Of a stretch of DNA of 64,000 bases, positions 1-41,016 are shown piece by piece. The translations under genes were made by a program, and so were the position numbers. Numbering within the stretch: position 1 is the stretch's first letter; each line of letters starts with the position of its first letter. The notes under the pieces are model-generated. The model was not told where the DNA came from. It saw only the letters and a list, made by a program, of their open reading frames with translations, and made no database searches. This DNA is from Acidobacteriota bacterium (GTDB lineage: Bacteria; Acidobacteriota; Thermoanaerobaculia; UBA5066): the NCBI GenBank assembly GCA_029781975.1, contig JAKOVQ010000025.1:15001-79000 (forward strand). The letters are read 5' to 3'.

Positions 1-2355
<2,355 letters not shown>

Positions 2356-2434
2356 AAAATTCTTGAGGCGCGAACGCGCGAATTCGGGGCGACAGCCCCT
2401 GCAACTCGATTCTGAACCGGATTGAAACAAGATT

Positions 2435-2554
2435 TTCCGGTGGCCATATCGAGGGGGTCCCACCCGTTCCCATTCCGAACACGGCCGTTAAGCCCCTCGG
2501 AGCCGATGGTACTGCACGGGTCAACCGTGTGGGAGAGTAGGACGCCGCCGGGAA
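2435..2554 (+). rRNA. rrf: 5S ribosomal RNA
   Basis: A 120-nt 5S rRNA. Its ends pair (TTCCGGTGGC with GCCGCCGGGAA), and the core contains the diagnostic CCCATTCCGAACACGG loop and the GGGAGAGTAGG segment of helix IV/V. It lies 80 nt after the 23S gene and is followed at once by an intrinsic terminator, so it is the last gene of the rRNA operon. Confidence 0.95.
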
Positions 2555-2561
2555 GTATGAG

Positions 2562-2596
2562 ACGCCCGGGCCGCAAGCCCGGGCGTTTCCCTTTTC
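2562..2596 (+). terminator. Rho-independent terminator of the rRNA operon
   Basis: A perfect 10-bp GC stem (ACGCCCGGGC / GCCCGGGCGT) with a 5-nt loop CGCAA, followed by a T-rich run TTCCCTTTTC. It sits 8 nt after the 5S gene. Confidence 0.85.
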
Positions 2597-2634
2597 TCCC
2601 CTTCTTGCCCAACCTCCCTTCGAGGCGACGCCCG

Positions 2635-2640
2635 TACAAT
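2635..2640 (+). promoter_or_regulatory. Candidate -10 element (TACAAT) for a leaderless transcript
   Basis: TACAAT lies 7 nt before the GTG start of the YfhO-like gene. There is no Shine-Dalgarno sequence between them, so transcription would begin at or next to the start codon. No convincing -35 is seen. The same TANNNT arrangement recurs before other operon-leading genes in this window. Confidence 0.45.
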
Positions 2641-2647
2641 CTCGGGG

Positions 2648-5005
2648 GTGACCCGCGCATCCGCCGGCCCGAGCCGCACGATGGTCCTCCCGGCGGCCGC
2701 CTTGCTCGGCCTCCTCCTCGCCGCCGCCGCCCTCCTTCCGTGCCTCGGGGGAGGGGTACCGGGGCGGGGCGACCTCGCGGACTTCTTCTGGCCGATGAAG
2801 ACCTACACGGCCTCCTGCTGGAAGGCCGGGAGGATTCCGCTCTGGAACCCCCTGTCGGGCTGCGGTGAGCCCTGGCTCGCCCAGCTGCAGTCGGGGGCCG
2901 TGAACCCGGCGGACCTTCCCTTCCTCCTCCCCTGGCCCTGGGGCCCGCTCGGGGCGACGGCGCTCCTCGTCGTCGTCGCCGCGACAGGGATGGCCGCGTG
3001 GCTCCGGAGGCTCGGCGCCTCGCGAGCGGGCTCGCTCGTCGCCGCGGGCGTCTACGCGGGCGGAGGGTCCTTCCTCTCCCTGATCCCCTTCTACAACAAC
3101 GCCGGGACGGCCGCGTTCCTGCCGTGGCTCTTCGCGGGCGCGGACGGCCTGGCCCGCGGCGGGAGCCCGGTCCCCTTCGCGGTGTCGGTCGGCCTCGCGT
3201 TCCTCGGGGGCGAGCCCGCGCTCGCCCTGGCGGGGTGCGCCGCCGCCGCGGTCGTGGGCCTCGCGACGCGCCGCGAAGGGGAGACGGTCCCCGAGGCCCG
3301 TCTCCCGGCGATCCGGCGCCTCCTGGTCGGCCTCGTCCTGGGGCTGGGCCTGGCCGCCGCGGCGCTCGCTCCCTTCGGAGCCCTTCTCCTCAGCTCGGGA
3401 CGCCTCGCCACCACGACGCGAGCCGAGGCTCTCGCCCGGCCGGTGGGGCCGTCCGACCTCGCCGACCTCGTCCTGCCCCCGTCGTCCGATGCGACCCGCG
3501 CCCTCGCTGCGGGCAGGGGCGACTACCTCGTCACCCTCGCCCTCGGCCCGGCCCCGCTCCTCCTGGCGGCGGCGGCTGCGGCAGGCTTCCCCGGCCGCCG
3601 GCGCCTCCTCTGGATCCTCGCGGCCGTCGGAGCTCTGGCCGGCCTCGTGGCGATCGGGGGACGGGGGCCGCTCCTCCCCCTCCTCGTCGACGCGGGCCTC
3701 TGGAAGGGGCTCCGGTTCCCCGCACGCTGGTTCGTCTTCACCCATCTCGCTCTCGCCCTGGCGGCCGGCGCGGGGCTCGACGGCTGGCTCTACGGCCGGT
3801 TCTCCTCCAGGACCGCCCCGGGAGAGGCGGCCGGCGACGCGGCGGACCCCGTCGAGGTCGAGGCGAGGAGGGGAGCGAGGGCCGCCTGGCTCTTCGCGGG
3901 CGCCTTCATCGCCACGACGGCAATCGCCCTCGTCGCGGTCCTCGCCGTCCCGGCGATCCGGGCCTCCCGAGACTCCCGCCGCGCGTGGCTCGCGTGCGGA
4001 GCCGCGGGAGTCGCCGCGCTCGCCGTGGGCGCCGCTCGCGCGCGCCGGGAGCGGGGTCCGGGAGCCTGGGCCGGCCTCGCTGCGGCCGCCGCGCTCGCAC
4101 CCCTGCCGTTCTTCTCCCGGGACGCGCTCGCGCCCGTCCCGGGCCGGGGACTCCTCGAGCCGCCCCCCATCGTGGCCGACCTCGCGCGGGACCACCCCGA
4201 GGGGCGGGTCTTCTCCCCGGTCGCCGGGGACCGGGACCTCCTCTCGGCGTGGTCGATCGGGGGAGCCGGGACCTGGAGCGCGGAGGTCCCCCTCCGGTCG
4301 ATGCGCGCCGTCGCGGGCTACTCGAACCTCCTCCCGGGGATCTCGACGGCCACGTCGCCCTCGCCCCTCCCGGACCCCCGTCGGCTCCGGCTCCTCGGCG
4401 TGGCGCTGGCCGGTGGCGACCCGGCCCGGATCCTCGGCCTGGCGGACGTCCGCTGGCTCGTCACGCCGTTCCCGACCTCGATCGCCGCGACCCGCCTGGA
4501 CCGGCGGGACGGGGACCTCCGCCGCTACCGCCTCTCGACCTTCGCCGGCCGCGTCTACAGCGCCTTCTCGGCGCGGGTCGCCACCGACGACGAGGCCTTC
4601 GACCTCCTCCGCCGCGGGGCGGTCGACCCGCAGAAGACGGTCCTCCTCGCGCCCGGGTCCCCTCCGGTGCAGCTCCCGGGGAACGCCCGCGCGGGCGGGT
4701 ATGCGCTGAGCCGGGTCCGCCGCGATGAGCCCGAGCTGACGGAGGTCGAGACGGACGCCTCCGAGCCGTCCCTCCTCGTCGTGACGCGGACCTGGGACGC
4801 GGGGTGGTCGGCGCGGGTGGACGGCCGGCCGGCGCCCCTCCTGCGCGCCCAGCTCGCCTTCCAGGCGATCCCGGTCCCGGCGGGACGGCACACCGTCCTC
4901 CTCGTCTACCGCCCGCTCACATTCCAGGCGGGGGTCCTCGTCTCGGGCGTCTCCCTCCTGCTCCTCGCGGGGCTGGCCCTCGCCGGCTCGTCCCGGCGGA
5001 GCTGA
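2648..5005 (+). CDS. YfhO-like polytopic membrane protein (GT-C-type fold)
   Basis: A 785-residue integral membrane protein with many hydrophobic segments through about residue 450 and a C-terminal soluble domain. The N-terminus has the YfhO pattern of an acidic residue near a first-loop FFWP, then PLWNPLSGCGEP. The end has the YfhO beta-domain signature WDAGWSARVDGRPAP followed by a final membrane helix. YfhO-family proteins are thought to act in cell-envelope glycosylation (Listeria YfhO glycosylates lipoteichoic acid). The substrate here is unknown. GTG is the only start near the -10 hexamer and gives a signal-anchor-like N-terminus. The next gene begins 2 nt after the stop, so they are probably co-transcribed. 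Confidence 0.8.
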   Translation: MTRASAGPSRTMVLPAAALLGLLLAAAALLPCLGGGVPGRGDLADFFWPMKTYTASCWKAGRIPLWNPLSGCGEPWLAQLQSGAVNPADLPFLLPWPWGPLGATALLVVVAATGMAAWLRRLGASRAGSLVAAGVYAGGGSFLSLIPFYNNAGTAAFLPWLFAGADGLARGGSPVPFAVSVGLAFLGGEPALALAGCAAAAVVGLATRREGETVPEARLPAIRRLLVGLVLGLGLAAAALAPFGALLLSSGRLATTTRAEALARPVGPSDLADLVLPPSSDATRALAAGRGDYLVTLALGPAPLLLAAAAAAGFPGRRRLLWILAAVGALAGLVAIGGRGPLLPLLVDAGLWKGLRFPARWFVFTHLALALAAGAGLDGWLYGRFSSRTAPGEAAGDAADPVEVEARRGARAAWLFAGAFIATTAIALVAVLAVPAIRASRDSRRAWLACGAAGVAALAVGAARARRERGPGAWAGLAAAAALAPLPFFSRDALAPVPGRGLLEPPPIVADLARDHPEGRVFSPVAGDRDLLSAWSIGGAGTWSAEVPLRSMRAVAGYSNLLPGISTATSPSPLPDPRRLRLLGVALAGGDPARILGLADVRWLVTPFPTSIAATRLDRRDGDLRRYRLSTFAGRVYSAFSARVATDDEAFDLLRRGAVDPQKTVLLAPGSPPVQLPGNARAGGYALSRVRRDEPELTEVETDASEPSLLVVTRTWDAGWSARVDGRPAPLLRAQLAFQAIPVPAGRHTVLLVYRPLTFQAGVLVSGVSLLLLAGLALAGSSRRS

Positions 5006-5007
5006 CG

Positions 5008-6186
5008 GTGTCCGCCGAGAGCCTCGTCCTCCACCTCTTCACATTCGCGCTCGGGGCGGTCGTCGGATCGTTCGCGAACGTCTGCATCCACAGGCTCCCG
5101 CGCAGGGAGTCGGTCGTCCGTCCCCGGTCGCGCTGCCCGGCCTGCGGAGCTCCGATCGCGGCCTGGGACAACGTCCCGGTCGTCTCGTGGCTCCTCCTGC
5201 GCGGGCGCTGCCGGCGGTGCCGGGCCCCCATCTCGATCCGCTACCCGTTGATCGAGGCGACCCTGGGCGCCGCCTTCGTCCTCGCGACGGTCCGGCACGG
5301 GTTCGGGCCGGAGGCCGTCGCGGCAGCCATCCTGGCGACGGCGGCCGTCATCCTCGCCGCGACGGACCTCCAGGCCCGGGTCCTCCCGGACGAGGTGACC
5401 TACGGCGTTCTCGCCCTGGGGCTCCTCCTGGCCGCGGCGCGGGACCTCCCCGACGCTCGGAAGGTCGGCGCGGGGGCGCTGGCGGGGCACCTCCTCCCCT
5501 CGGTCGCGGGCGCCGCGTTCGGCGCGGCCCTCCTCCTCGGGGTCGGGCTCGCCTACCGCCTCGTCCGGGGCGCCGAGGGGATGGGGCTCGGCGACGTGAA
5601 GATGATCGCGATGGGCGGAGCGTTCGTCGGGCCGGCCGGGGTCCTCGTCGCCCTCTTCGTCGCCTCGGTCTCGGGCGTCCTGGCGGCGGGGGCCCCGGCT
5701 CTCGTCAGGGCCCTGCGCTGGCGGCTCGCCTTCCGCTCCGCGCGCGGCTCAGAGGAGCGCGCCCGCGACGAGGGAGAGCGCCACGGCGCCCTCCTCACCG
5801 CCGGGGGGACCGTGGTCGCGGCCGCGGGCCGGAGGTGGCGCGAGATCCCGGGGAACGCCCCGCCCGGCGCGAAGCTCTCGGAGGCCGGGCCGGTCGCCCG
5901 CCCCGTCGTCGCCTTCGTCCGTCTCGCGCGCCGGAGGTCCCGGAGAGGCGAGGCGACCTCCTTCGGCCGGCTCGCGGTCGAGGACGAGACCGGAGAGTTC
6001 TTCCGCGTCCTCGCGGCCCGGGCCGAGGCGCTCCCCGGCGGCCTCCTCGTCCTCCTCGGCCGCGTCGACGTCCCGTTCGGGGTCTTCCTGGCGGGGGGGA
6101 TCCTCGTGGCCTACGAGTGGGGAGGCGCCGCCGTCGACCTCCTCACGCACGGCCTTCCGGTCCCCGGGCGGGGGCTCCTCCCGTGA
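5008..6186 (+). CDS. pilD: Prepilin peptidase / N-methyltransferase with internal insertion
   Basis: An inner-membrane A24 aspartyl protease that cleaves and N-methylates type IV prepilins. The N-terminal domain has the zinc-type Cys pairs C43/C46 (CPAC) and C68/C71 (CRRC). The catalytic aspartates are D120 (ATDLQARVLPDE) and D196 in GLGDVK. The protein is 392 residues against about 290 usually. Roughly 110 extra, charged residues sit between the GLGDVK helix pair and the conserved final segment (PFGVFLAGGILVAY), which resembles PFGPFLALGA of other PilD proteins. The GTG start at 5008 gives the expected short N-terminus (VSAESLVLHLFTF); upstream in-frame sequence overlaps yfhO and looks non-native. 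Its substrates are probably the pilins encoded at 11.8-15.0 kb. Confidence 0.92.
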   Translation: MSAESLVLHLFTFALGAVVGSFANVCIHRLPRRESVVRPRSRCPACGAPIAAWDNVPVVSWLLLRGRCRRCRAPISIRYPLIEATLGAAFVLATVRHGFGPEAVAAAILATAAVILAATDLQARVLPDEVTYGVLALGLLLAAARDLPDARKVGAGALAGHLLPSVAGAAFGAALLLGVGLAYRLVRGAEGMGLGDVKMIAMGGAFVGPAGVLVALFVASVSGVLAAGAPALVRALRWRLAFRSARGSEERARDEGERHGALLTAGGTVVAAAGRRWREIPGNAPPGAKLSEAGPVARPVVAFVRLARRRSRRGEATSFGRLAVEDETGEFFRVLAARAEALPGGLLVLLGRVDVPFGVFLAGGILVAYEWGGAAVDLLTHGLPVPGRGLLP

Positions 6187-31089: not shown

Positions 31090-34000
31090 ATGCGAAATCG
31101 TTGGCTGAGCGCCGCCGTGGCGCTCGTCCTCGCCGTCGTCGGCTTCGGAACGCTTCCGGCGCTCGCACAGACCACCGGCACCATCGAGGGAACGGTTGCA
31201 GACTCCAACGGGGCGCCGCTCCCGGGCGTCTCCGTCGAAATCCGCTCTCCCGCCCTCCAGGGGACCCGGACCGTCGTCACCGATGCGCAGGGGCGGTACA
31301 AGTTCCCGGCGACCCCCCCCGGCAACTACACGGTTACGGCGTCGCTCTCCGGCTTCACCAAGGTCGAGAAGACCAACGTCCGCGTCTCGCTCGGCGCGGC
31401 GGTGACGCTCCCCATCACCCTGTCGGTCTCCATCAAGGAGGAGGTCGTCGTCACGGGTGAGGCGCCGGTCGTCGACACGACGAAGACCGTCATCGGCGCC
31501 ACGACGTCGATCGACACCATCCAGAAGCTCCCGCTCGGCCGGAACTTCACCTCCATCGCCACGACGGTGGCGGGGACCGGCACCAGCGCGGGCGGCGGCG
31601 TGACCGTCTACGGCGCGACGGGCCTCGAGAACCAGTACATCATCGACGGCCTGAACACCACCGGCATCAAGATCGGCGACCAGGGCAAGACGATGAACAA
31701 CGAGTTCGTCCAGGAGGTCGAGGTCAAGACCGGCGGCTACGAGGCCGAGTACTCGCGTGCCCTGGGCGGCGTCATCAACGTCGTCACCAAGTCGGGCGGC
31801 AACGAGTTCCACGGCGACCTCTTCGGCTACTACGACGCGAAGGGCCTCGCGGCCGGCGACAAGCGGGTCGACGATAAGAAGGCAGTCGGCCAGTCCGAGC
31901 TCGTCCTTCCCAAGAGGCTCGACGTCGGCCTCGGCATCGGCGGCTACCTGATGAAGGACCGGATCTGGTTCTACGGCGCGTACGACCGCGTCAACCGGGA
32001 CCAGGACCTCAACGCCCGGGTCGGCTACGTCCCGGCGACCAAGACCGTCCTGACCCGGAGCGAGACCGACGAGACCCGGACCAACCTCTACTCGGGCAAG
32101 CTGACCTTCCGGATCGGCGAGTCGAACACCGTGTCGGCCTCGATCCTCGGCGACCCGGGCACCTTCAACGGCGAGCTCGCGGCCGTCATCGGTCCCGACA
32201 CCGCCCGCCTGGGCGAGAACAAGTTCGGCGGTCTCGACTACGCGGCCAAGTGGGACGGCATCTTCGGCACCCAGTTCCTCGCGCAGCTCCAGTACGGCCA
32301 CCACGAGGAGAAGTCCGAGGACGCGCCGCTCAGCACGGGCCTCTCGATCCGCCAGGCCCGCTCGGGGTACTCGACGTTCTACGTCCCCGGGTCGGGGATC
32401 CCGCTCTACTCGCGGGAGAAGTACAAGAGGGACGCGGGCAAGATCTCGGGCACCGGCTTCTTCGGCAGCCACGAGGTCAAGGTCGGTCTCGACTACGAGA
32501 GCATCGACTCGAGCTTCTTCCAGGGCTACGGCGGCGGCGCGCTCAACCAGCAGCGCCTCAGCGCGGGCTCGGGCGCCTTCTCGTACTCCTACTTCCGCTA
32601 CTACGCGAAGTTCCCCCTCAACTGCTCACATGCCTACGAGACGCCGGGCGACTACGGCAGCCCGATCATCACCGGCAACTTCGGGACCCCGGGCGCGGGT
32701 AACGCCGCCGTCCCGACGGTCCAGGACTGCGCGGCCTACGACGTCGCCCAGCCGGGCAACTCGAACAAGCCGAAGACCGAGAACCTCGGCTTCTTCGCCC
32801 AGGACTCCTGGAAGGTCCTCAAGAACCTCACGCTCAACGTCGGCGTCCGCTACGACCAGCAGAAGCTGAAGGACGCGTCGGGCGTCGTGCGGATCAAGCT
32901 CGAGGACGAGTGGTCGCCCCGTATCGGCGTGATCTGGGACTTCGCCAACAACGGCAAGTCGAAGTTCTACGCCAACTACGGCCGCTACTACACCGTCATC
33001 CCGCAGGACATCCAGACCCGCGCCCTCGGCAACGAGTACACCGTCTTCTCCTACAACTACACCCAGGGCGTCCCGGGCGGCACCCCCGACAACGTCGCCG
33101 ACCCGAACGTCTTCCCCTACGCCTACATCCAGGGCGGGCAGATCACGCCGTCCGGCCTCAAGGGGATGTACCAGGACGAGTACATCGCGGGCGTCGAGTA
33201 CGAGCTCGTGAAGAACTGGTCCTTCGGGATCAAGGGCCTCTACAAGTCGCTGGGCCGCGCCGTCGAGGATCGCTGCGACCTGACTGACCCGCGGCTCCCC
33301 TATCTCGCCTCCTACATCCCGCAGGGCTCGCTCACCACGTGCGCGCTGGTCAACCCCGGCGAGCAGGGGACCCTCGGCATCCTCAAGGACCCGGACAACC
33401 CGGCGTGCTACGGTCCCGACGGCAAGCTCACGGGCAACTGCGAGTCGACCCAGGTTCGCCGCTACTACCGCGGCATGGAGCTGACGGCGACCCACCGCTT
33501 CGCGAGCAACTTCTACATGCTCGCCAGCTACCTCTACTCCAAGCTCGAGGGGAACTACGACGGTAACGAGAAGCAGTCGACCGGCCAGCAGGACCCGAAC
33601 ATCAACGCCGACTTCGACTACATCGACCTCGTCCCGAACAACTTCGGCACGCTTTCCCTCAACCGGACGCACCAGTTCAAGCTGTCGGGCACCTATGCGT
33701 TCCCGTTCGGCCTGACGGTCGGCACCTCGATCCGTTACAACACCGGCGCCCCCTTCGCCGTCCGCGGCTACGCGCGCTCGGGCTACTTCTCCGAGCGCTA
33801 CCTCACCCCGGGGCGCGGCTACAAGTACGACCTGCCGGCTGTCTACGAGGCGGACCTCCACCTCGAGTACAACCTGCGCGTCGGCCCGGTCACGATCACG
33901 CCGGTCGTCGACGTCTTCAACCTCCTCAACCGGCAGGGCGTGACCGGCCGCGACGGCGCCTTCAACACCGTCAACGCCGCGAGCAACGACCCGGCTCACC

Positions 34001-34137
34001 AGATCGGCCAGCCCGGCTGCACGGCAGCGAACGCCACCTACGACAACCCGGCCTGCGCCACGAACGCCTTCTACATGAAGGACAACGCGTGGCAGAACCC
34101 CACGCAGGTCCGTCTGGGAGCCCGCGTCTCCTTCTGA
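31090..34137 (+). CDS. Oar-like TonB-dependent outer-membrane receptor
   Basis: A 1015-residue outer-membrane protein. After a signal peptide (ending in LPALAQ) comes a carboxypeptidase-regulatory-like beta-sandwich (TTGTIEGTVADSNGAPLPGV to NYTVTASLSGF). The plug follows (EEVVVTGEAPVVDTTKT, IDGLNTTGIKIG, GGVINVVTKSGGNEFHG), then a large beta-barrel ending in LGARVSF with a terminal Phe. This is the Oar-type architecture expanded in Acidobacteriota and Myxococcota; typical cargo is glycans, peptides or metal complexes, and the cargo here is unknown. A strong ribosome site and a UUCG terminator suggest high expression. The pseudokinase-TonB protein at 37.6 kb is a possible energy coupler. Confidence 0.9.
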   Translation: MRNRWLSAAVALVLAVVGFGTLPALAQTTGTIEGTVADSNGAPLPGVSVEIRSPALQGTRTVVTDAQGRYKFPATPPGNYTVTASLSGFTKVEKTNVRVSLGAAVTLPITLSVSIKEEVVVTGEAPVVDTTKTVIGATTSIDTIQKLPLGRNFTSIATTVAGTGTSAGGGVTVYGATGLENQYIIDGLNTTGIKIGDQGKTMNNEFVQEVEVKTGGYEAEYSRALGGVINVVTKSGGNEFHGDLFGYYDAKGLAAGDKRVDDKKAVGQSELVLPKRLDVGLGIGGYLMKDRIWFYGAYDRVNRDQDLNARVGYVPATKTVLTRSETDETRTNLYSGKLTFRIGESNTVSASILGDPGTFNGELAAVIGPDTARLGENKFGGLDYAAKWDGIFGTQFLAQLQYGHHEEKSEDAPLSTGLSIRQARSGYSTFYVPGSGIPLYSREKYKRDAGKISGTGFFGSHEVKVGLDYESIDSSFFQGYGGGALNQQRLSAGSGAFSYSYFRYYAKFPLNCSHAYETPGDYGSPIITGNFGTPGAGNAAVPTVQDCAAYDVAQPGNSNKPKTENLGFFAQDSWKVLKNLTLNVGVRYDQQKLKDASGVVRIKLEDEWSPRIGVIWDFANNGKSKFYANYGRYYTVIPQDIQTRALGNEYTVFSYNYTQGVPGGTPDNVADPNVFPYAYIQGGQITPSGLKGMYQDEYIAGVEYELVKNWSFGIKGLYKSLGRAVEDRCDLTDPRLPYLASYIPQGSLTTCALVNPGEQGTLGILKDPDNPACYGPDGKLTGNCESTQVRRYYRGMELTATHRFASNFYMLASYLYSKLEGNYDGNEKQSTGQQDPNINADFDYIDLVPNNFGTLSLNRTHQFKLSGTYAFPFGLTVGTSIRYNTGAPFAVRGYARSGYFSERYLTPGRGYKYDLPAVYEADLHLEYNLRVGPVTITPVVDVFNLLNRQGVTGRDGAFNTVNAASNDPAHQIGQPGCTAANATYDNPACATNAFYMKDNAWQNPTQVRLGARVSF

Positions 34138-34190: not shown

Positions 34191-34341
34191 CTTTCGTGAC
34201 CCGCGTCCCGTCTCCGCCCCGCATCGTGCCGGCCCCCCCCGCGGAGGCGGCCCCCGCTTCGAGCCCGGCATCCCCTTGGCATGCAGGTGTGGCGGCGTGC
34301 CGGATGTGCCGGCCTTGAAGCGTTCGCCAGGAAGGACCCCG

Positions 34342-36348
34342 ATGACCCGGAATTCCCGATTCCGCTCGACTGCCGCCCTCGCGATCGCCCTCCTCGCAGC
34401 CCTCGAGCTGGCCGCACGGGCGGACGCCGCGGCGCCGGCGAGGAAGGCGACGGCCCCGACCGCGCCGCGCGTCATCGTCGTCGGCTGGGACGGCGGCGAC
34501 TGGACGCTGCTCGACTCCCTGGTCGCCTCCGGCCGGATGCCCAACCTGGCGGCTCTCCTCGCCCGCGGGCGGAGCTGGAACCTGGATTCCTACCAGCCGA
34601 TGGCCTCCCCGCTCATCTGGACGACGATCGCCACCGGCCGGACGCCGGTCGACCACGGGGTCGCGGACTTCCAGGAGCTCGACCCGAAGACGAAGGTCCG
34701 GCTCCCGATCTCCGGTCGCTCCCGAAGGGTTCCGGCCATCTGGAACCTCGCGACGGCCAAGGGGGTGAGCGTCGGGATCGTCGGCTGGTGGGCCACCTGG
34801 CCGGCCGAGAAGGTCGACGGGTTCTTCGTCTCCGACCGGGCCGCGCCGGTCCTCTTCGACCCCGAGACCCTCTCGCGATCGCCGGCTCTGACGTGGCCCG
34901 AGGGCCTCGCGGACGGCGTGCGGATCGTCGGGAAGAGGGAAGGGACGCCGGGGTACGAGGACGTCGCGAAGGGGCTGAAGATCACGAGGAGCGAGTTCGA
35001 CGCCGCCGTGGCGGCGAAGAAGGACCTGCGCGACCCGATCACCGGATACCAGAAGGTGCTCGGGTCGATGCGCGTCTACGCCCGGACCGCGCTCGAGCTC
35101 TACGACCGGAACCGCCCGCAGCTCCTGATGGTCTACTTCCAGGGGACGGACGAGATCGGGCACGTCCTGGCGAAGTACCACCCGCCGAAGCTGGCGAACG
35201 TCCCCGAGGCCGAGTTCGCCAAGTTCAGCGGCGGCGCCGACGCCTTCTACGCCGAGGCCGACCGCGTCCTGGGAGAGTTCCTGAAGAGGGCCGAGCGCGA
35301 CGGGGCCACGCTTCTCCTCGCCTCGGACCACGGCTTCCGGTGGGGGAAAGACCGCCCCGGCTACTATTCGTCCATCGACTTCGACACGGCGTTCCTCTGG
35401 CACCGCTCCCCCGGGATCCTGGCCGCGATGGGACCGGGCGTGACCCCGTCGAAGGAGAGGGGCAAGGCGAGCGTCTTCGACGTGGCGCCGACCCTCTGCC
35501 GCCTCCTCGGCCTCCCGCCGGACCCGGCGTTCGAGGGGAAGCCGGTCGCCGGGCTGGCGACGAAGGGGCTCCCGCGTCCGGCTCCGGCCGTGTCCTGGGC
35601 GAAGGCGGCGCCGGTGGAGAGGCTGGTCCCGGCCACCGACGCCGGGAGCGAGCGGAAGGCCGCCGAGGAGTTCACGAAGAAGCTGATCTCCCTGGGCTAC
35701 CTGACCGGGGCCGAAGCGGCGGCCGTCGACGCGCGGCCGGCCGACCGCGCCGGGACCGAGACCGCCGGGAGCTTCCAGAACATCGCGACGTTCCTTCGCG
35801 CCCGCGGCCGCGTCAAGGACTCGCTCCCCTTCTACGAGAAGGCGCTCGAGGTGAACCCGAGGTCGGCCACGGCGTGGATGAACCTCTCGATCGCGCTCCA
35901 GACCCTCTCGCGCTTCGACGATTCGGACGACGCCCTCCTGAAGGCCGTCCAGTTCGGCTACCACGACCCGGAAGCGACCGTGTACCGCCGCGTGGCCACC
36001 TACATGGAGAGGAGCAAGACGGAGGTGCCGGCCCGCGCGCAGCTCGTCGCCTTCCTCAGGCGAGTGACGGCTGCCTACCCCGACAACGTCCGCTACGCGG
36101 GCTCTCTCGGGAAGGTGCTTTTCGAGAGGCAGGACTGCGCGGGAGCGGAGGAGGTCTTCCGGTCGCTCGTGGCCAGGCAGCCCAACGACCTCGAGAGCCT
36201 GAACCTGCTCGCGCTCTCGTCCTGGTGCCTCGGAAAGACCGGGGAGGCCAGGTCCCTCCTCCAGCGCTCGCTCGCGCTCGACCCGAACCAGCCGATCGTC
36301 CGCGAAGGCCTCGCGCAGATCGATCGAGGAGGACAACCGCCACGATGA
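34342..36348 (+). CDS. Exported alkaline-phosphatase-superfamily protein with C-terminal TPR domain
   Basis: A 668-residue secreted protein. The signal peptide ends near ARADAAA. Residues about 45-420 are a type I phosphodiesterase/nucleotide pyrophosphatase-like domain: a first metal Asp in VVGWDGGDW, a Ser/Thr nucleophile region SPLIWTTIATG, GTDEIGHVLAKYHP, LLLASDHGFRWG and a later metal-ligand segment. Residues about 480-660 contain TPR-like helices (SLPFYEKALEVNPRSATAWMN and similar). The ATG is placed after GGAAGG; an upstream start would spoil the signal peptide. The stop overlaps the DsbA-like gene (ATGA). The substrate is unknown. Confidence 0.82.
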   Translation: MTRNSRFRSTAALAIALLAALELAARADAAAPARKATAPTAPRVIVVGWDGGDWTLLDSLVASGRMPNLAALLARGRSWNLDSYQPMASPLIWTTIATGRTPVDHGVADFQELDPKTKVRLPISGRSRRVPAIWNLATAKGVSVGIVGWWATWPAEKVDGFFVSDRAAPVLFDPETLSRSPALTWPEGLADGVRIVGKREGTPGYEDVAKGLKITRSEFDAAVAAKKDLRDPITGYQKVLGSMRVYARTALELYDRNRPQLLMVYFQGTDEIGHVLAKYHPPKLANVPEAEFAKFSGGADAFYAEADRVLGEFLKRAERDGATLLLASDHGFRWGKDRPGYYSSIDFDTAFLWHRSPGILAAMGPGVTPSKERGKASVFDVAPTLCRLLGLPPDPAFEGKPVAGLATKGLPRPAPAVSWAKAAPVERLVPATDAGSERKAAEEFTKKLISLGYLTGAEAAAVDARPADRAGTETAGSFQNIATFLRARGRVKDSLPFYEKALEVNPRSATAWMNLSIALQTLSRFDDSDDALLKAVQFGYHDPEATVYRRVATYMERSKTEVPARAQLVAFLRRVTAAYPDNVRYAGSLGKVLFERQDCAGAEEVFRSLVARQPNDLESLNLLALSSWCLGKTGEARSLLQRSLALDPNQPIVREGLAQIDRGGQPPR

Positions 36349-37571
36349 CAGCCCTTCATCGAACCCGAAGGACCGCCCCCCTGCTCGCCGGAGCCGCCGC
36401 GCTCCTCGCGTGCGCCGCCCCCCGTGCAGCAACGGGCCAGTCGCCGTCGGCGCACCAGGCCGCGCCCGCGCCCCAGGCCGCGCCCAGGCTCCCGGACCCG
36501 CGCGTCCAGGCGCTCCTCGCCTGGATCGACCCCTACTTCCCGTGGGGCGAAGGGGAGATCGCGCTCGACGAGATCACGCAGCTGAAGGTCCCGGGCTACC
36601 GGATCCTGAAGGCGACCAAGAAGTACAAGCTCGACGAGCGGGCGAACGACCAGACGTACCTCGCCCTCGAGGACAACGGGAAGTCCGCCCTCATCGGCGA
36701 CGTCTTCCTCGACGAGGACCGATTCAAGGCCAGGCAGCCGGTCCGGACCGAGGCCGACCTCGACGGCGTCCAGCGCCAGCTCTCGAAGTTCTTCCGCGGC
36801 CGCTTCCGGGTCGCCCTCGACCCGTCGCTCGACCGCCCCTCCTGGAAGGGGATCAGGCTGACGATCGAGACCGGCTACGGGACCTACGACGCCTCGGGCT
36901 TCGTGACCGCCTCGGACGGCGCGTTCGCCCTGGTCGGGCGGGCCTGGGACCGGAACCGGGGGTTCCCCGAGCAGCGTCGCGCCCTGATCAACCTCGCCGA
37001 CACCCCGGCCATCGGCCCCGAGGACGCGAAGGTGACGGTGGTCGAGTACTCCGACATGGAGTGCCCGTACTGCAAGAAGCGGACGAAGGACTGGGATGTC
37101 CTCGCGGCCAAGCTCGCGCCGGTCCTGAAGATCCGCCGCTACTTCAAGGCCTTCCCCCTCACGAACGACCACCCGTGGGCCTTCCGGGCCTCCTCGGCGG
37201 GACGGTGCTTCTACGAGAAGAGCCCCGCGCTCTTCCTCAACTGGAAGTCGTCCGTCTACGCGCGCCAGGAGCAGCTCAACGTCGCCGCGCTTGACACCTT
37301 CGCCCTCGACTTCGCCGTCGCCAACGGGATCCCCCAGCTCCAGTTCCAGTCCTGCTACCTCCAGGGCCGGTCGGTGGAGCGAGTGCACGAGGACATGGCG
37401 GAGGGATTCGCGGTGCGGGTCCGCTCCACGCCGACCTACTTCGTCGACGGGCAGCCGGTCTCGTGGTTCGCGGACGACCTGATGGAGGAGTACCTCCGGA
37501 AGACCTACCTCAAGGGGGCGGGGCTCCCGCTCCCCCATGCCGCGAAGCCAGCGGCGGCCTCCAGGAAGTAG
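36345..37571 (+). CDS. Exported DsbA-like thiol-disulfide oxidoreductase
   Basis: A 408-residue protein with a cleavable or lipoprotein-like N-terminus (LLACAAPRAATGQ). The N-terminal half (about 50-210) is a non-thioredoxin domain of unknown fold (FPWGEGEIALDEITQLKVPGYRI and so on). The C-terminal half is a DsbA/DsbG-type thioredoxin with the active site CPYC in VVEYSDMECPYCKKRT and the cis-Pro segment RSTPTYFVDGQPV. It probably oxidises or isomerises disulfides in exported proteins. It shares an operon with the phosphatase-TPR gene. Confidence 0.85.
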   Translation: MTALHRTRRTAPLLAGAAALLACAAPRAATGQSPSAHQAAPAPQAAPRLPDPRVQALLAWIDPYFPWGEGEIALDEITQLKVPGYRILKATKKYKLDERANDQTYLALEDNGKSALIGDVFLDEDRFKARQPVRTEADLDGVQRQLSKFFRGRFRVALDPSLDRPSWKGIRLTIETGYGTYDASGFVTASDGAFALVGRAWDRNRGFPEQRRALINLADTPAIGPEDAKVTVVEYSDMECPYCKKRTKDWDVLAAKLAPVLKIRRYFKAFPLTNDHPWAFRASSAGRCFYEKSPALFLNWKSSVYARQEQLNVAALDTFALDFAVANGIPQLQFQSCYLQGRSVERVHEDMAEGFAVRVRSTPTYFVDGQPVSWFADDLMEEYLRKTYLKGAGLPLPHAAKPAAASRK

Positions 37572-37616: not shown

Positions 37617-39464
37617 TCACTTGATGGCGAACGGGATCGGGACGACGATCCAGGTCTTCACCCTCTTGCCGTCCTTCTGAGCGGGCTGCCACTGCCACTG
37701 GGCGACGGCGTCCCGGCTCGTCTCGGCCAGGCCGACCCGCGGGTTCGTGTCCCTCAGGACGTCGACTTGCGCGGGCTTGCCGTTCTCGTCGACGAGGACG
37801 TGGAGGAGGACCGTCCCGCCCACCCGGCGCTGCCGGGCCATCGCGCTCACCTCGGGCTTCACGATCTTGGTGGCCTGGGGCTGCCGGTCGACCTGGGAGA
37901 CGTCGACGAGGTCTCCCTCCTTCGTCTTCGGGATCGCGGCCTCGGCGGCCTTGCGGGCGGCCTCCTCTCGCTGCCGGGCCGCCTCGGCCTCGCGGGCGAG
38001 GCGGGTCGCCTCCTCCGTGTCGGCGCGCTCGCGGGCGAGGCGCGCGGCCTCCTCGGCCTCGCGCGTCTTCCGCGCGACCTCCTCGAGCTTCGCCTGGTCG
38101 TCCGCCTTCTTCTTCGCGGCGGCGGCCTGCTCGCGGGCGATCTGGTCCTGGACCTTCTTCATCTCCTCGGCGAGCTTGGCCTGGAGCGCCTGCTGGAAGG
38201 CCGGGTCCTCCTTGCCGACGATGACCGGCGTCGGCGGCGGCGCCGGCGTCGGCGTGGCGACGGGGGCGGTCACCGGCGGCGGGGGGGGCGGCGCGGGCTT
38301 CTCCCGGCCTCGCATCAGCACGACCCCGACACCGATGAGGACGGCGACGCCGATTCCGGCGAGGACGGGGATCGGGACGCCTCCCTTCCCGGGGCCGGCC
38401 GGCGCGGGCGCCGGAGCCGACACCCCGAAGCTGGGGACGGTCACCTCGCGGGGCGGCGCCTTGGGAGCGGCGCGGAGGCCCTTGTCACGCCTCTCCTCCG
38501 CCTCCCGCAGGGGCCTGACGTCGATGTGCTCCTCCTCGCTCATCTCCCTCCGCTCGGCCTCGATCGACTTCTCGAACTTCTGGTGCATGAAGAAGGCGAG
38601 GTTGAACGTCGACGGGGCGTACGGGCCGCCGTAGAGGAGCTTGCCCAGGGACTTGCGGTAGCTCACGACGTCCTGCTCGCGCTGGGAGGGGTCCCTGGCC
38701 AGGCCGCGGGCGAGGAGGCGGGAGATGTCGTCGGGGATCGGGCTGCCGTTGACGCCGAGGACCGCGCCGCGCAGCGCCTCCGCGCCCGCGCCGGGAGCGG
38801 GAGGGCGGCCGACGAGCCCTTCGAAGAGGATCGCCGCCGCGGAGTAGATGTCCCCTGCGACCGACGGCTTGCCCGTGGCGGCGACCTCCGGTGCGACGTA
38901 GGGCGCGAAGGAGGCCTGGAACTCCGGGACCCGGAGCGAGGGGAGGAGGCCGGCGCCCAGGCCGGTGCCGAAGACGCGGACGTCCCCGTCGTTGGAGACG
39001 GTGACGAACGCCGGGACGAGGAAGCCGTGGGGCGCGCCGAGCTTCCTCTCGAACGGCTTGGCCGCCTCGAGGGCGACGAGGAGCTTCTCCCCCATCAGGA
39101 GCGCGTGCTCGATCGGGAAGGCGAGCGTCTCGGCGCCGTCGTAGCGGAAGAGCCGGTCCAGGGTCCGGCCCGGGACGTACTCGATCCCGGCGAACGGGAC
39201 GTCGTCGACGATCCCGAGGACGGCCCCCTTCGCGACGGCAGGGCCGCGCACCTCCTCGAGGTACTCGGCCGCGGTCTCCATCACCGGGAAGAGGGCGTCG
39301 CGGTCGATCGCGGGGCCGCCGAACGTCCGGATCAGGACGAAAGGCGCGAGGCTCGGCCCGGAGGCCGTCCCCGCCCGGTACAGGGAGCCGAGCCGGTCGT
39401 CACCGAACTGGTGCGTCAGGACGTACGGGCCGAAGAGCCGGGGAAGGGGGCTTTGCGCGCTCAT
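37617..39464 (-). CDS. Pseudokinase-TonB fusion protein
   Basis: A 615-residue protein with an unusual order. Residues about 10-270 resemble a Ser/Thr protein-kinase fold (APEVAATGKPSVAGDIYSAAAILFEGLVGRPP matches the APE to helix F region). However, the catalytic HRD and DFG motifs and the VAIK lysine are not recognisable, so it is probably a pseudokinase. One TM follows (VPIPVLAGIGVAVLIGVGVVLM, about 365-387). Next come a Pro-rich stretch, a long Ala/Glu/Lys coiled coil, and a C-terminal TonB_C domain (GGTVLLHVLVDENGKPAQVD to WIVVPIPFAIK). TonB_C domains bind outer-membrane receptors and pass on proton-motive energy. The kinase-like part would be cytoplasmic. ATG 39464 is preceded by GGGAG and is preferred over a GTG 4 codons upstream. 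Confidence 0.82.
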   Translation of the reverse strand: MSAQSPLPRLFGPYVLTHQFGDDRLGSLYRAGTASGPSLAPFVLIRTFGGPAIDRDALFPVMETAAEYLEEVRGPAVAKGAVLGIVDDVPFAGIEYVPGRTLDRLFRYDGAETLAFPIEHALLMGEKLLVALEAAKPFERKLGAPHGFLVPAFVTVSNDGDVRVFGTGLGAGLLPSLRVPEFQASFAPYVAPEVAATGKPSVAGDIYSAAAILFEGLVGRPPAPGAGAEALRGAVLGVNGSPIPDDISRLLARGLARDPSQREQDVVSYRKSLGKLLYGGPYAPSTFNLAFFMHQKFEKSIEAERREMSEEEHIDVRPLREAEERRDKGLRAAPKAPPREVTVPSFGVSAPAPAPAGPGKGGVPIPVLAGIGVAVLIGVGVVLMRGREKPAPPPPPPVTAPVATPTPAPPPTPVIVGKEDPAFQQALQAKLAEEMKKVQDQIAREQAAAAKKKADDQAKLEEVARKTREAEEAARLARERADTEEATRLAREAEAARQREEAARKAAEAAIPKTKEGDLVDVSQVDRQPQATKIVKPEVSAMARQRRVGGTVLLHVLVDENGKPAQVDVLRDTNPRVGLAETSRDAVAQWQWQPAQKDGKRVKTWIVVPIPFAIK

Positions 39465-39509: not shown

Positions 39510-40604
39510 TCAGCGGACCGCTGGCCCAGCGGCCCGACGCGCGCGCCGGTAGAGCGCGACGTTGCGCTCGTGGCCCGCCCAGTCGGTCGAGAACCGGTGC
39601 GTCCCCGACCCGTCGCCGACGGCCACGAAGTAGAGGAAGTCGACCGGCGCGGGCGAGACCGCGGCCTCGAGCGACGCCCGGCCCGGGCTGCAGATCGGGC
39701 CGGGCGGGAGCCCGGGCCGGACGTAGGTGTTCCACGGGTCGTCCCGTGCCAGGTCGTCGCGCGTCAACCCGCCCCTCGGGAGGCCGGCCCTCCTGAGGGC
39801 GTAGACCGTCGTCGGGTCGCACTGGAGGAGCATCCCGATCCGGAGCCGGTTGAGGTAGACCGCCGCGACGACGGGGCGCTCGGCGGCGACCCCCGTCTCC
39901 TTCTCGACCATCGAGGCGAGGGTGACGGCTCCGAGGAGGCTCAGCCCGCGCTCGGAAGCGCGGGCGGCGTAGCCGTCGGGGAGGGAGCGGACGAACTGCC
40001 TCACGAGGAGCCGGACGACGTCGCGGGGAGCCACGGGGCGGGTCAGGTCGTACGTCGCCGGGAAGAGGAACCCCTCGAGCGTGGGCGCCCCGCGGGGGAC
40101 CCCCTCGAACTCCCCGGGGCGCGTGAAGAGGGCGCGGTAGTCGGAGACGTCCCCGAAGCCGCGCGCCGCGAGGGTCTCGAAGATCTCCTCGGCGGTGAGC
40201 CCTTCCGGCAGCGTGATCCGGTGGACGAGGACGCGGCCCTCGAGGAGCGGCCGGAGGACCTCCTCTGGCGACAGCGGCCCCTCGAAGCGGTACTCCCCCG
40301 CCTTGAGCGTCGCCCCCCGGTGGCGGACCCGGAGCGAGATGAGGAGGAGCCTGCGGTCGCGGACGACGCCCCCCTCCTCGAGCGCCGCCGCGATCGCACG
40401 CGACGAGGAGCCCGGCGGGACCGTCAGGAGGACGGACGGGGCCGCGTACCCCTTGTAGGGCGTCTCGAGCGCCCGGCCCAGCGCCAGGACGCCTCCTCCC
40501 GCCGCCAGCGCCGCGGCCGCGAGGAGGACGAGGATGCGCCTGCGCCAGCGGGCACGGCGGGGGCGCCCCCGCCGGCGGTCCGGCGTGTCAGGGCCGCGGG
40601 GCAC
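39510..40604 (-). CDS. mltG: Endolytic murein transglycosylase
   Basis: A 364-residue inner-membrane lytic transglycosylase that cuts nascent glycan strands and sets their length. It has a basic N-terminus, one TM (about residues 23-45), a LysM-like subdomain and the YceG/MltG catalytic part with Glu234 in ASMVEKETG, followed by AAVYLNRLRIGMLLQCDPTTVYAL and DDPWNTYVRPGLPPGPICSPG. The length is normal. The GTG start overlaps the end of ruvX by 17 nt, and the ruvX-mltG pairing is common in bacteria. Confidence 0.93.
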   Translation of the reverse strand: MPRGPDTPDRRRGRPRRARWRRRILVLLAAAALAAGGGVLALGRALETPYKGYAAPSVLLTVPPGSSSRAIAAALEEGGVVRDRRLLLISLRVRHRGATLKAGEYRFEGPLSPEEVLRPLLEGRVLVHRITLPEGLTAEEIFETLAARGFGDVSDYRALFTRPGEFEGVPRGAPTLEGFLFPATYDLTRPVAPRDVVRLLVRQFVRSLPDGYAARASERGLSLLGAVTLASMVEKETGVAAERPVVAAVYLNRLRIGMLLQCDPTTVYALRRAGLPRGGLTRDDLARDDPWNTYVRPGLPPGPICSPGRASLEAAVSPAPVDFLYFVAVGDGSGTHRFSTDWAGHERNVALYRRARRAAGPAVR

Positions 40605-41016
40605 GGGACGGACGGGCCGCGAGGTAGTCGCGCAGGATGACGGCGGCGGCCTCGGCGTCCCGGGCGGCCGCGCGCCGGGAAGACGGGACCCCCGCGTCGC
40701 GGAGCCCCTCCTCGGCCGCGACGGAGGTGAGCTCCTCCCGGTGGAGCTCCACGGGGAGCCCGGAGACCTCTCCGAGGCGGCGGGCGAAGTTGCGGGCGCG
40801 GCGCGCGAACGGTCCCTCGCGCCCCTCGGCCCCTTCCGGGCAGCCGACCACCAGCAGCGTCGCGCCGCGCTCGCGGGCGGCCTCCGTCACCGCGGACGCG
40901 GCCTGCGCGTCGCTCGCGCGTGGGAGCGTCCCGACCGGCACCGCGAAGACGTCCCCGGGGTCCGAGACGGCGAGACCGATTCTCCTCTCGCCGAAGTCCA
41001 CAGCGAGGACCGTCAC
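40588..41016 (-). CDS. ruvX: RuvX/YqgF Holliday junction resolvase-like nuclease
   Basis: A 142-residue RNase H-fold protein. The first strand has the conserved VLAVDFGERRIGLAVSDP. GCPEGAEGREGPFARRARNFARRLGE and ELTSVAAEE (family: DERLTS) follow, then a final acidic DAEAAAVILRDYL. YqgF proteins act in 16S rRNA maturation and possibly recombination. It is the first gene of a two-gene operon with mltG. The GTG start is 6 nt after a TATCCT hexamer and has no Shine-Dalgarno. Confidence 0.88.
   Translation of the reverse strand: MTVLAVDFGERRIGLAVSDPGDVFAVPVGTLPRASDAQAASAVTEAARERGATLLVVGCPEGAEGREGPFARRARNFARRLGEVSGLPVELHREELTSVAAEEGLRDAGVPSSRRAAARDAEAAAVILRDYLAARPSRAPRP

Follow-up and report, generated by a model that had tools for sequence, protein, structure and literature searches.

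A pseudokinase joined to a TonB C-terminal domain in Acidobacteriota and its co-occurrence with an active kinase

In Mycobacterium tuberculosis, the membrane protein MviN (ActPs3 family) carries a pseudokinase (residues 710–942) that functions under PknB, an active kinase that phosphorylates it, and that is bound by FhaA, according to the part of the source available to us (PMC12599244). The same text describes EssB/YukC, a bacterial membrane pseudokinase that forms part of a secretion apparatus in Firmicutes and for which the available part reports no TonB C-terminal (TonB_C) domain, as well as the GLW pseudokinases, mostly from proteobacteria, in which a transmembrane (TM) stretch follows the pseudokinase, GLW replaces HRD, and Leu or Trp replaces the β3 Lys. 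The PASTA kinases PknB, Stk1 and PrkC are active enzymes with a cytoplasmic kinase fold, a single TM helix and an extracytoplasmic arm of PASTA repeats. TonB and TolA combine a single TM helix, a long periplasmic arm and the TonB_C fold; the Ser and His of their S-x3-H motif (SHLS) form the contact with ExbB/TolQ, and the His is essential for Ton and Tol activity, as stated in the accessible part of PMC12215075. TonB-like domains also occur outside transport, in SjdR of Anabaena, which is reportedly uninvolved in siderophore transport (PMC8262864, in the portion available), and in M56 peptidase-TonB proteins, one of which is encoded in the genome studied here; neither has a kinase domain.

Here we analyze a gene in the window (the whole 64,000-nt stretch of acidobacterial DNA examined, on contig C25 of its genome) whose product joins a PknB-type kinase fold, predicted to be dead, across one TM helix to a helical arm and a TonB_C domain. 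We report its architecture, the loss of its catalytic motifs, its conservation, an active paralog in the same genome and the co-occurrence of the two in genomes of the phylum. We found no description of a fusion between TonB_C and a kinase or pseudokinase in the open-access literature searched, and the architecture is new within known kinds of protein, the bacterial pseudokinase and the TonB-family protein. MviN provides a precedent, in that a pseudokinase of a membrane protein works under PknB (PMC12599244, available part), but in the window protein, which is not known to be phosphorylated, the pseudokinase is N-terminal and is followed by one TM helix, an arm and TonB_C. Relative to the PASTA kinases, its best matches in NCBIfam and the PDB, the window protein appears inactive and has TonB_C in place of PASTA; unlike TonB and TolA, it lacks S-x3-H, has a large cytoplasmic domain and is encoded beside neither exbBD nor tolQR. 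Membership in GLW was considered and rejected, since the position of HRD reads HG followed by F, A or L, the β3 residue is Arg (74/80 orthologs) and the carriers are Acidobacteriota. Of the seven families reviewed in PMC12599244 (ActPs1, ActPs2, ActPs3, CP1, DLHK, DYD and GLW), our comparison covered GLW (by motif), CP1, DLHK and ActPs3.

A kinase fold without its catalytic residues

The reading frame at 37617–39464 on the minus strand is intact, with an ATG start and 615 codons followed by a stop. Its N-terminal part matches a PknB-type kinase in NCBIfam (E 1e-12) and PknB among PDB sequences (E 2.7e-7), both over aa 60–317, and falls below threshold for Pfam Pkinase (E 0.0064). AlphaFold2, given 65 aligned sequences, predicts a complete kinase fold for aa 9–312 (38529–39440, minus strand, as are all gene features below) with a pLDDT of 94.0 and a pTM of 0.93. 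PknA, PknB, PknI and MEK kinases are its structural neighbors by both Foldseek, where PknA, PknB and PknI scored best (E about 1e-12), and VIA-align (Z 22–23).

The full-length model (pLDDT 85.1, pTM 0.61) continues with a TM helix at aa 372–384, lying within the single hydrophobic stretch of about aa 365–385 (38310–38372), and a Pro-rich linker (aa 385–420; 38205–38312), although much of aa 340–419 is modeled with low confidence. The linker leads into one continuous 90-residue helix (aa 421–510; 37935–38204) that is rich in Ala, Glu, Arg and Lys, contains only 5 Leu and would, if straight, measure about 135 angstrom by calculation. The protein ends in a confidently predicted TonB_C fold (aa 530–613; 37626–37877; pLDDT mostly 92–98), which Pfam matches at aa 540–613 (E 7e-14) and whose closest solved structure, found by sequence search of the PDB and not by fold, is 2k9k, TonB2 (E 1e-4). 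NCBIfam adds weak matches to TolA, Pfam finds no PASTA repeats, and the matches listed by a fold search with the full-length model were all kinases. When a protein crosses the membrane once and its TonB_C domain is periplasmic, its N terminus must be cytoplasmic.

Judged by its motifs, the kinase domain is catalytically dead. The Lys of VAIK in β3 is replaced by Arg46 (39327–39329), HRDxKP by HGFLVP (aa 146–151; 39012–39029) and DFG by GTG (aa 166–168; 38961–38969), and we saw no active site in permuted form. These observations bear out the original prediction of a pseudokinase with neither HRD nor DFG, joined by one TM helix to TonB_C. Of the long coiled coil that it also proposed, the long helix stands and the coiled coil is not established.

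To place these losses in a family, 84,980 species genomes were scanned with one conserved peptide pattern, and the best 80 of the 125 relatives found were kept, whose titles name Acidobacteriota or classes thereof except for two labeled "uncultured bacterium" and one labeled "Deltaproteobacteria". The β3 Lys is lost in 78/80 of these orthologs (Arg in 74, Lys retained in 2). At the position of HRD, His is found in 79 and Gly in all 80, followed by Phe in 61 or Ala in 11, and the catalytic Asp is present in none. The Asp of DFG is replaced by Gly in 79/80 of these class orthologs and retained in one (L118). Residues that hold the fold together are conserved: the APE Glu in 79/80, the αF Asp in 78/80 and the αH Arg in 79/80. 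Behind the kinase core lies the motif GPYAPSTFNLAFFMHQKF (aa 280–297; 38574–38627), of which TFNLA is identical in 80/80 orthologs, partly by construction because the search pattern contained TFNLA; its T, F, N and A are also invariant in 27 sequences collected independently by whole-protein search.

Outside the class, the HRD Asp is absent from all 29 readable rows (one further row was unreadable); several of these members have Asp at the DFG column with the rest of the motif missing, and a few keep the β3 Lys. TonB_C matched in 41/41 family members scanned and Pkinase in 40/41; among out-of-class members scanned, TonB_C matched in 7/7, two of which, L197 and L207, have diverged so far that Pkinase is not matched at E 0.01. 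Two proteins of 549 aa each (L057:5983-7629 and one in L036) have TonB_C and apparently lack the TM stretch.

The loss of catalytic residues would also fit a decaying kinase remnant without function. We regard this as very improbable, as the gene is retained phylum-wide (86/297 genomes, see below), non-catalytic residues are invariant and internal stops are absent from the full-length orthologs listed; the conservation contradicts a functionless remnant.

Distribution and gene neighborhood

A profile of the 51-residue post-kinase motif matches 86 of 297 Acidobacteriota genomes sampled across the phylum, and the family is therefore phylum-wide but not universal. Its carriers include many soil and sediment bacteria of this one phylum, in which the pseudokinase-TonB_C family is old, widespread and conserved. 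A search of 40 genomes, including that of the window, gave some match in each and a pseudokinase match, as judged from the listing, in 33; those without it were G007, G018 and five genomes of the genus g17.

In the window, the gene is preceded by mltG (yceG; 39510–40604, minus strand; PF02618, E 4e-77) and by a gene at 40588–41016 (minus strand) that we take to be ruvX/yqgF-like, both assigned with the help of synteny. Downstream, a Thioredoxin_4/DsbA-like gene (36357–37571, plus strand) is convergent with the pseudokinase gene and is also found downstream in several near relatives. A plus-strand gene at 34276–36348 encodes a protein in which TPR repeats come after a type I phosphodiesterase domain (Pfam).

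Among 73 loci of the class with at least 1.7 kb of upstream sequence, ruvX lies upstream in 66, with mltG in between in 52 and absent in 14, and neither gene is found in 7; in the 52, mltG and ruvX are on the same strand as the pseudokinase gene. None of the out-of-class loci examined has mltG or ruvX, and of all loci in that comparison only L222 (a class member, genome G019) and the control L227 do. The out-of-class neighbors are diverse and include ATP synthase subunits, an RNB ribonuclease, a SAM hydroxide adenosyltransferase and glycosyltransferases, among others. The association with the mltG-ruvX operon is thus confined to one class and is not obligatory. In L222 (G019:C60), two genes of the family stand in tandem behind ruvX and mltG (1528–5600).

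The conserved operon made a partnership with MltG look strong at first. Together with PknB being the closest kinase type, it would fit a regulator of peptidoglycan synthesis that acts on its operon partner MltG, much as the mycobacterial MviN pseudokinase acts in the PknB pathway. The case is weakened by genomes that carry one gene alone: in family f10, all three genomes (G029, G035 and G038, each at least 95% complete) lack mltG (PF02618) and retain the pseudokinase-TonB gene; mltG is present in each of the three g17 genomes that we checked, none of which matches the motif profile. It is weakened further by the out-of-class loci, with their diverse neighbors and neither mltG nor ruvX, and we now consider such a regulator improbable. 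Gene context thus yields no stable partner.

Comparison with energized TonB and TolA

The genome of the window has TonB_C matches at ten places. One, on contig C42, belongs to a tonB-exbB-exbD-exbD locus, in which a TonB_C protein is encoded with ExbB and two ExbD; another, on contig C15, is a TonB_C/TolA-like protein encoded with ExbB/TolQ-type and ExbD/TolR-type genes. A third protein (L122:4260-5573, minus strand) fuses an M56 (BlaR1-type) peptidase to TonB_C, a TonB_C fusion outside transport. In the four single-TM TonB/TolA-like proteins that we checked in this genome (on C42, C15, C14 and C36), the TM helix contains S-x3-H in each case, and we did not find the motif in the TM stretch of the window protein or of its active kinase paralog. 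Among the orthologs tested, none had a His in its TM stretch; one of 81, L057, was flagged for a best-scoring segment that is not a TM stretch, and the L101 sequence is incomplete. S-x3-H was likewise absent from all 30 out-of-class rows, one of them an incomplete sequence. Given this absence and the role assigned to the motif in the available part of PMC12215075, the window protein is probably not driven by ExbBD.

The original prediction suggested that the protein may be a sensor gating the transfer of energy to receptors in the outer membrane, such as the Oar-like receptor 3.5 kb away. That receptor gene lies where it was said to (31090–34137), and the window does lack ExbB and ExbD, every match to which falls on C15 or C42. 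Such a protein would be a TonB variant energized by ExbBD. Its TonB_C domain is genuine, and the genome does encode ExbB and ExbD, although not linked to the gene, a linkage that is usual for TonB and not strictly required. S-x3-H, which all four single-TM TonB/TolA-like proteins checked in this genome have, is missing from the window protein and the out-of-class rows; the genome has a dedicated tonB-exbBDD locus; and an Oar-like gene lies near the pseudokinase gene in 4 of 80 loci, a lower bound because many loci have short flanks. With motif, gene context and receptor synteny all lacking, energy gating is unsupported and was dropped as the leading model; we consider it distinctly improbable. 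The window protein may still be a cytoplasmic sensor, as was also proposed.

A TolA-like tether is unlikely as well, if less so. Here the arm and TonB_C would link the inner membrane to the outer envelope mechanically, with the pseudokinase as a docking plug only. The single 90-residue helix, predicted to form a long periplasmic domain as in TolA, together with TonB_C and the weak NCBIfam matches to TolA, fits such a tether. However, the gene lies outside any tol operon, S-x3-H is absent, and a TolA-like protein with TolQR-type genes is encoded elsewhere in the genome. Moreover, an inert plug would not obviously require the retained kinase core and TFNLA, nor would it obviously co-occur with one kinase family, as described next.

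An active kinase counterpart and a proposed envelope receptor

Although kinase matches at E ≤ 1e-10 number 53 in this genome, the strongest non-self kinase match of the window protein there is a 982-aa protein on contig C24 (E 5.9e-25, against 2.5e-10 for the next listed), a paralog that the original prediction, which had the fusion right, could not see. This protein (L121:2508-5453; G000:C24:368507-371452), encoded on a different contig from the pseudokinase (C25), consists of Response_reg, Pkinase (E 6e-43), a TM helix and TonB_C. It retains VAIK, HRD and DFG. Its receiver-like domain has Ser at the expected phospho-acceptor Asp and is therefore probably a pseudo-receiver; the receiver-like domains of its counterparts mostly lack this Asp too, with a few out-of-class ones retaining it (column judged by eye).

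Of 20 candidate active-kinase loci from relatives, 18 have HRD and DFG, and L170, missed by tblastn, makes 19. The remaining locus (L167:1684-3456, minus strand) encodes a second kind of pseudokinase, with HGLLWP, GFG and a similar post-kinase segment, and gave no TonB_C match at E 0.01. The post-kinase segments of the pseudokinase and active-kinase groups align (hhalign probability 96.6); part of this segment is shared with PknB-type kinases in general. In a kinase-domain tree of 62 sequences, including 26 of the 53 own-genome kinases, the pseudokinases and L167 form a group (UFBoot 99), the active TonB-linked kinases form another (75), and both are split from the 26 kinases (UFBoot 100). As the tree consists of three groups with no outgroup and carries a risk of long-branch effects, it does not prove that the two TonB-linked groups are sisters.

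We then used a profile built from 14 active kinases to search 40 hand-picked genomes, 21 positive and 19 negative for the pseudokinase by the 51-residue motif profile, with 11 of the 19 negatives belonging to one genus. At E ≤ 1e-120, a cut chosen after we saw a gap between 6.5e-131 and 6.3e-77, the active kinase was matched in 20/21 positive and 0/19 negative genomes (Fisher's exact test, 3e-10 by genome and 2e-6 by family, with 13/13 against 0/9 families, which are not independent lineages). Exceptions occur in both directions: G133 has the pseudokinase without a match to the kinase profile, and G018 has the kinase without a match to the pseudokinase. All 19 partner loci that we read retain HRD and DFG (the twentieth partner is L220). 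Among ten partner kinases scanned with Pfam, seven match a receiver domain and six TonB_C; TonB_C is missing from the other four, and a symmetric two-armed receptor is therefore not general. The f33 partners (L240, L242 and L243) end just past the TM stretch, and the f47 partners have no TM stretch. L240 and L242 were scanned and gave no TonB_C match; the one f33 pseudokinase scanned (L204) retains it.

We hypothesize that the window protein is a trans-envelope pseudokinase adaptor or receptor that works with the co-inherited active kinase, a reading to which we give a probability of about 0.45 and whose pairing we infer from co-occurrence. The dead PknB-type domain would sit in the cytoplasm, anchored by the one TM helix in the putative N-in topology, and the helical arm would span the periplasm and bring the TonB_C end near the outer envelope. 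There, the tip may bind a ligand, presumably peptidoglycan or a protein of the outer membrane. On the cytoplasmic side, the pseudokinase would read out the arm's state and might allosterically regulate or recruit the active kinase, itself composed of a receiver-like domain, a kinase and often a TM helix and TonB_C. Both the physical pairing with this kinase and the direction of signaling are putative.

A more specific version, which we put forward tentatively and consider somewhat less probable, is a phylum-level system of two single-pass TonB_C paralogs, in which the pseudokinase and the active kinase, the latter led by its mostly degenerate receiver domain, would read the outer envelope mechanically through their TonB_C arms and dimerize to give Ser/Thr phosphorylation; TonB_C would then serve in sensing, not in energy transduction. 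Where a lineage's kinase no longer has its arm, the envelope would be probed by the pseudokinase alone.

In this family, a PknB-type kinase fold and a TonB tip, each a familiar module, are combined in one protein that is old and has been conserved within a major phylum on which little work has been done. The family also warns that the annotation "TonB family protein" need not imply transport. Its co-occurrence with an active sister kinase suggests an unstudied route for signals across the cell envelope. If the pairing is true, the two proteins would constitute a bacterial kinase-pseudokinase pair with a non-energizing role for TonB_C, and a Gram-negative counterpart of envelope sensing by PASTA kinases.
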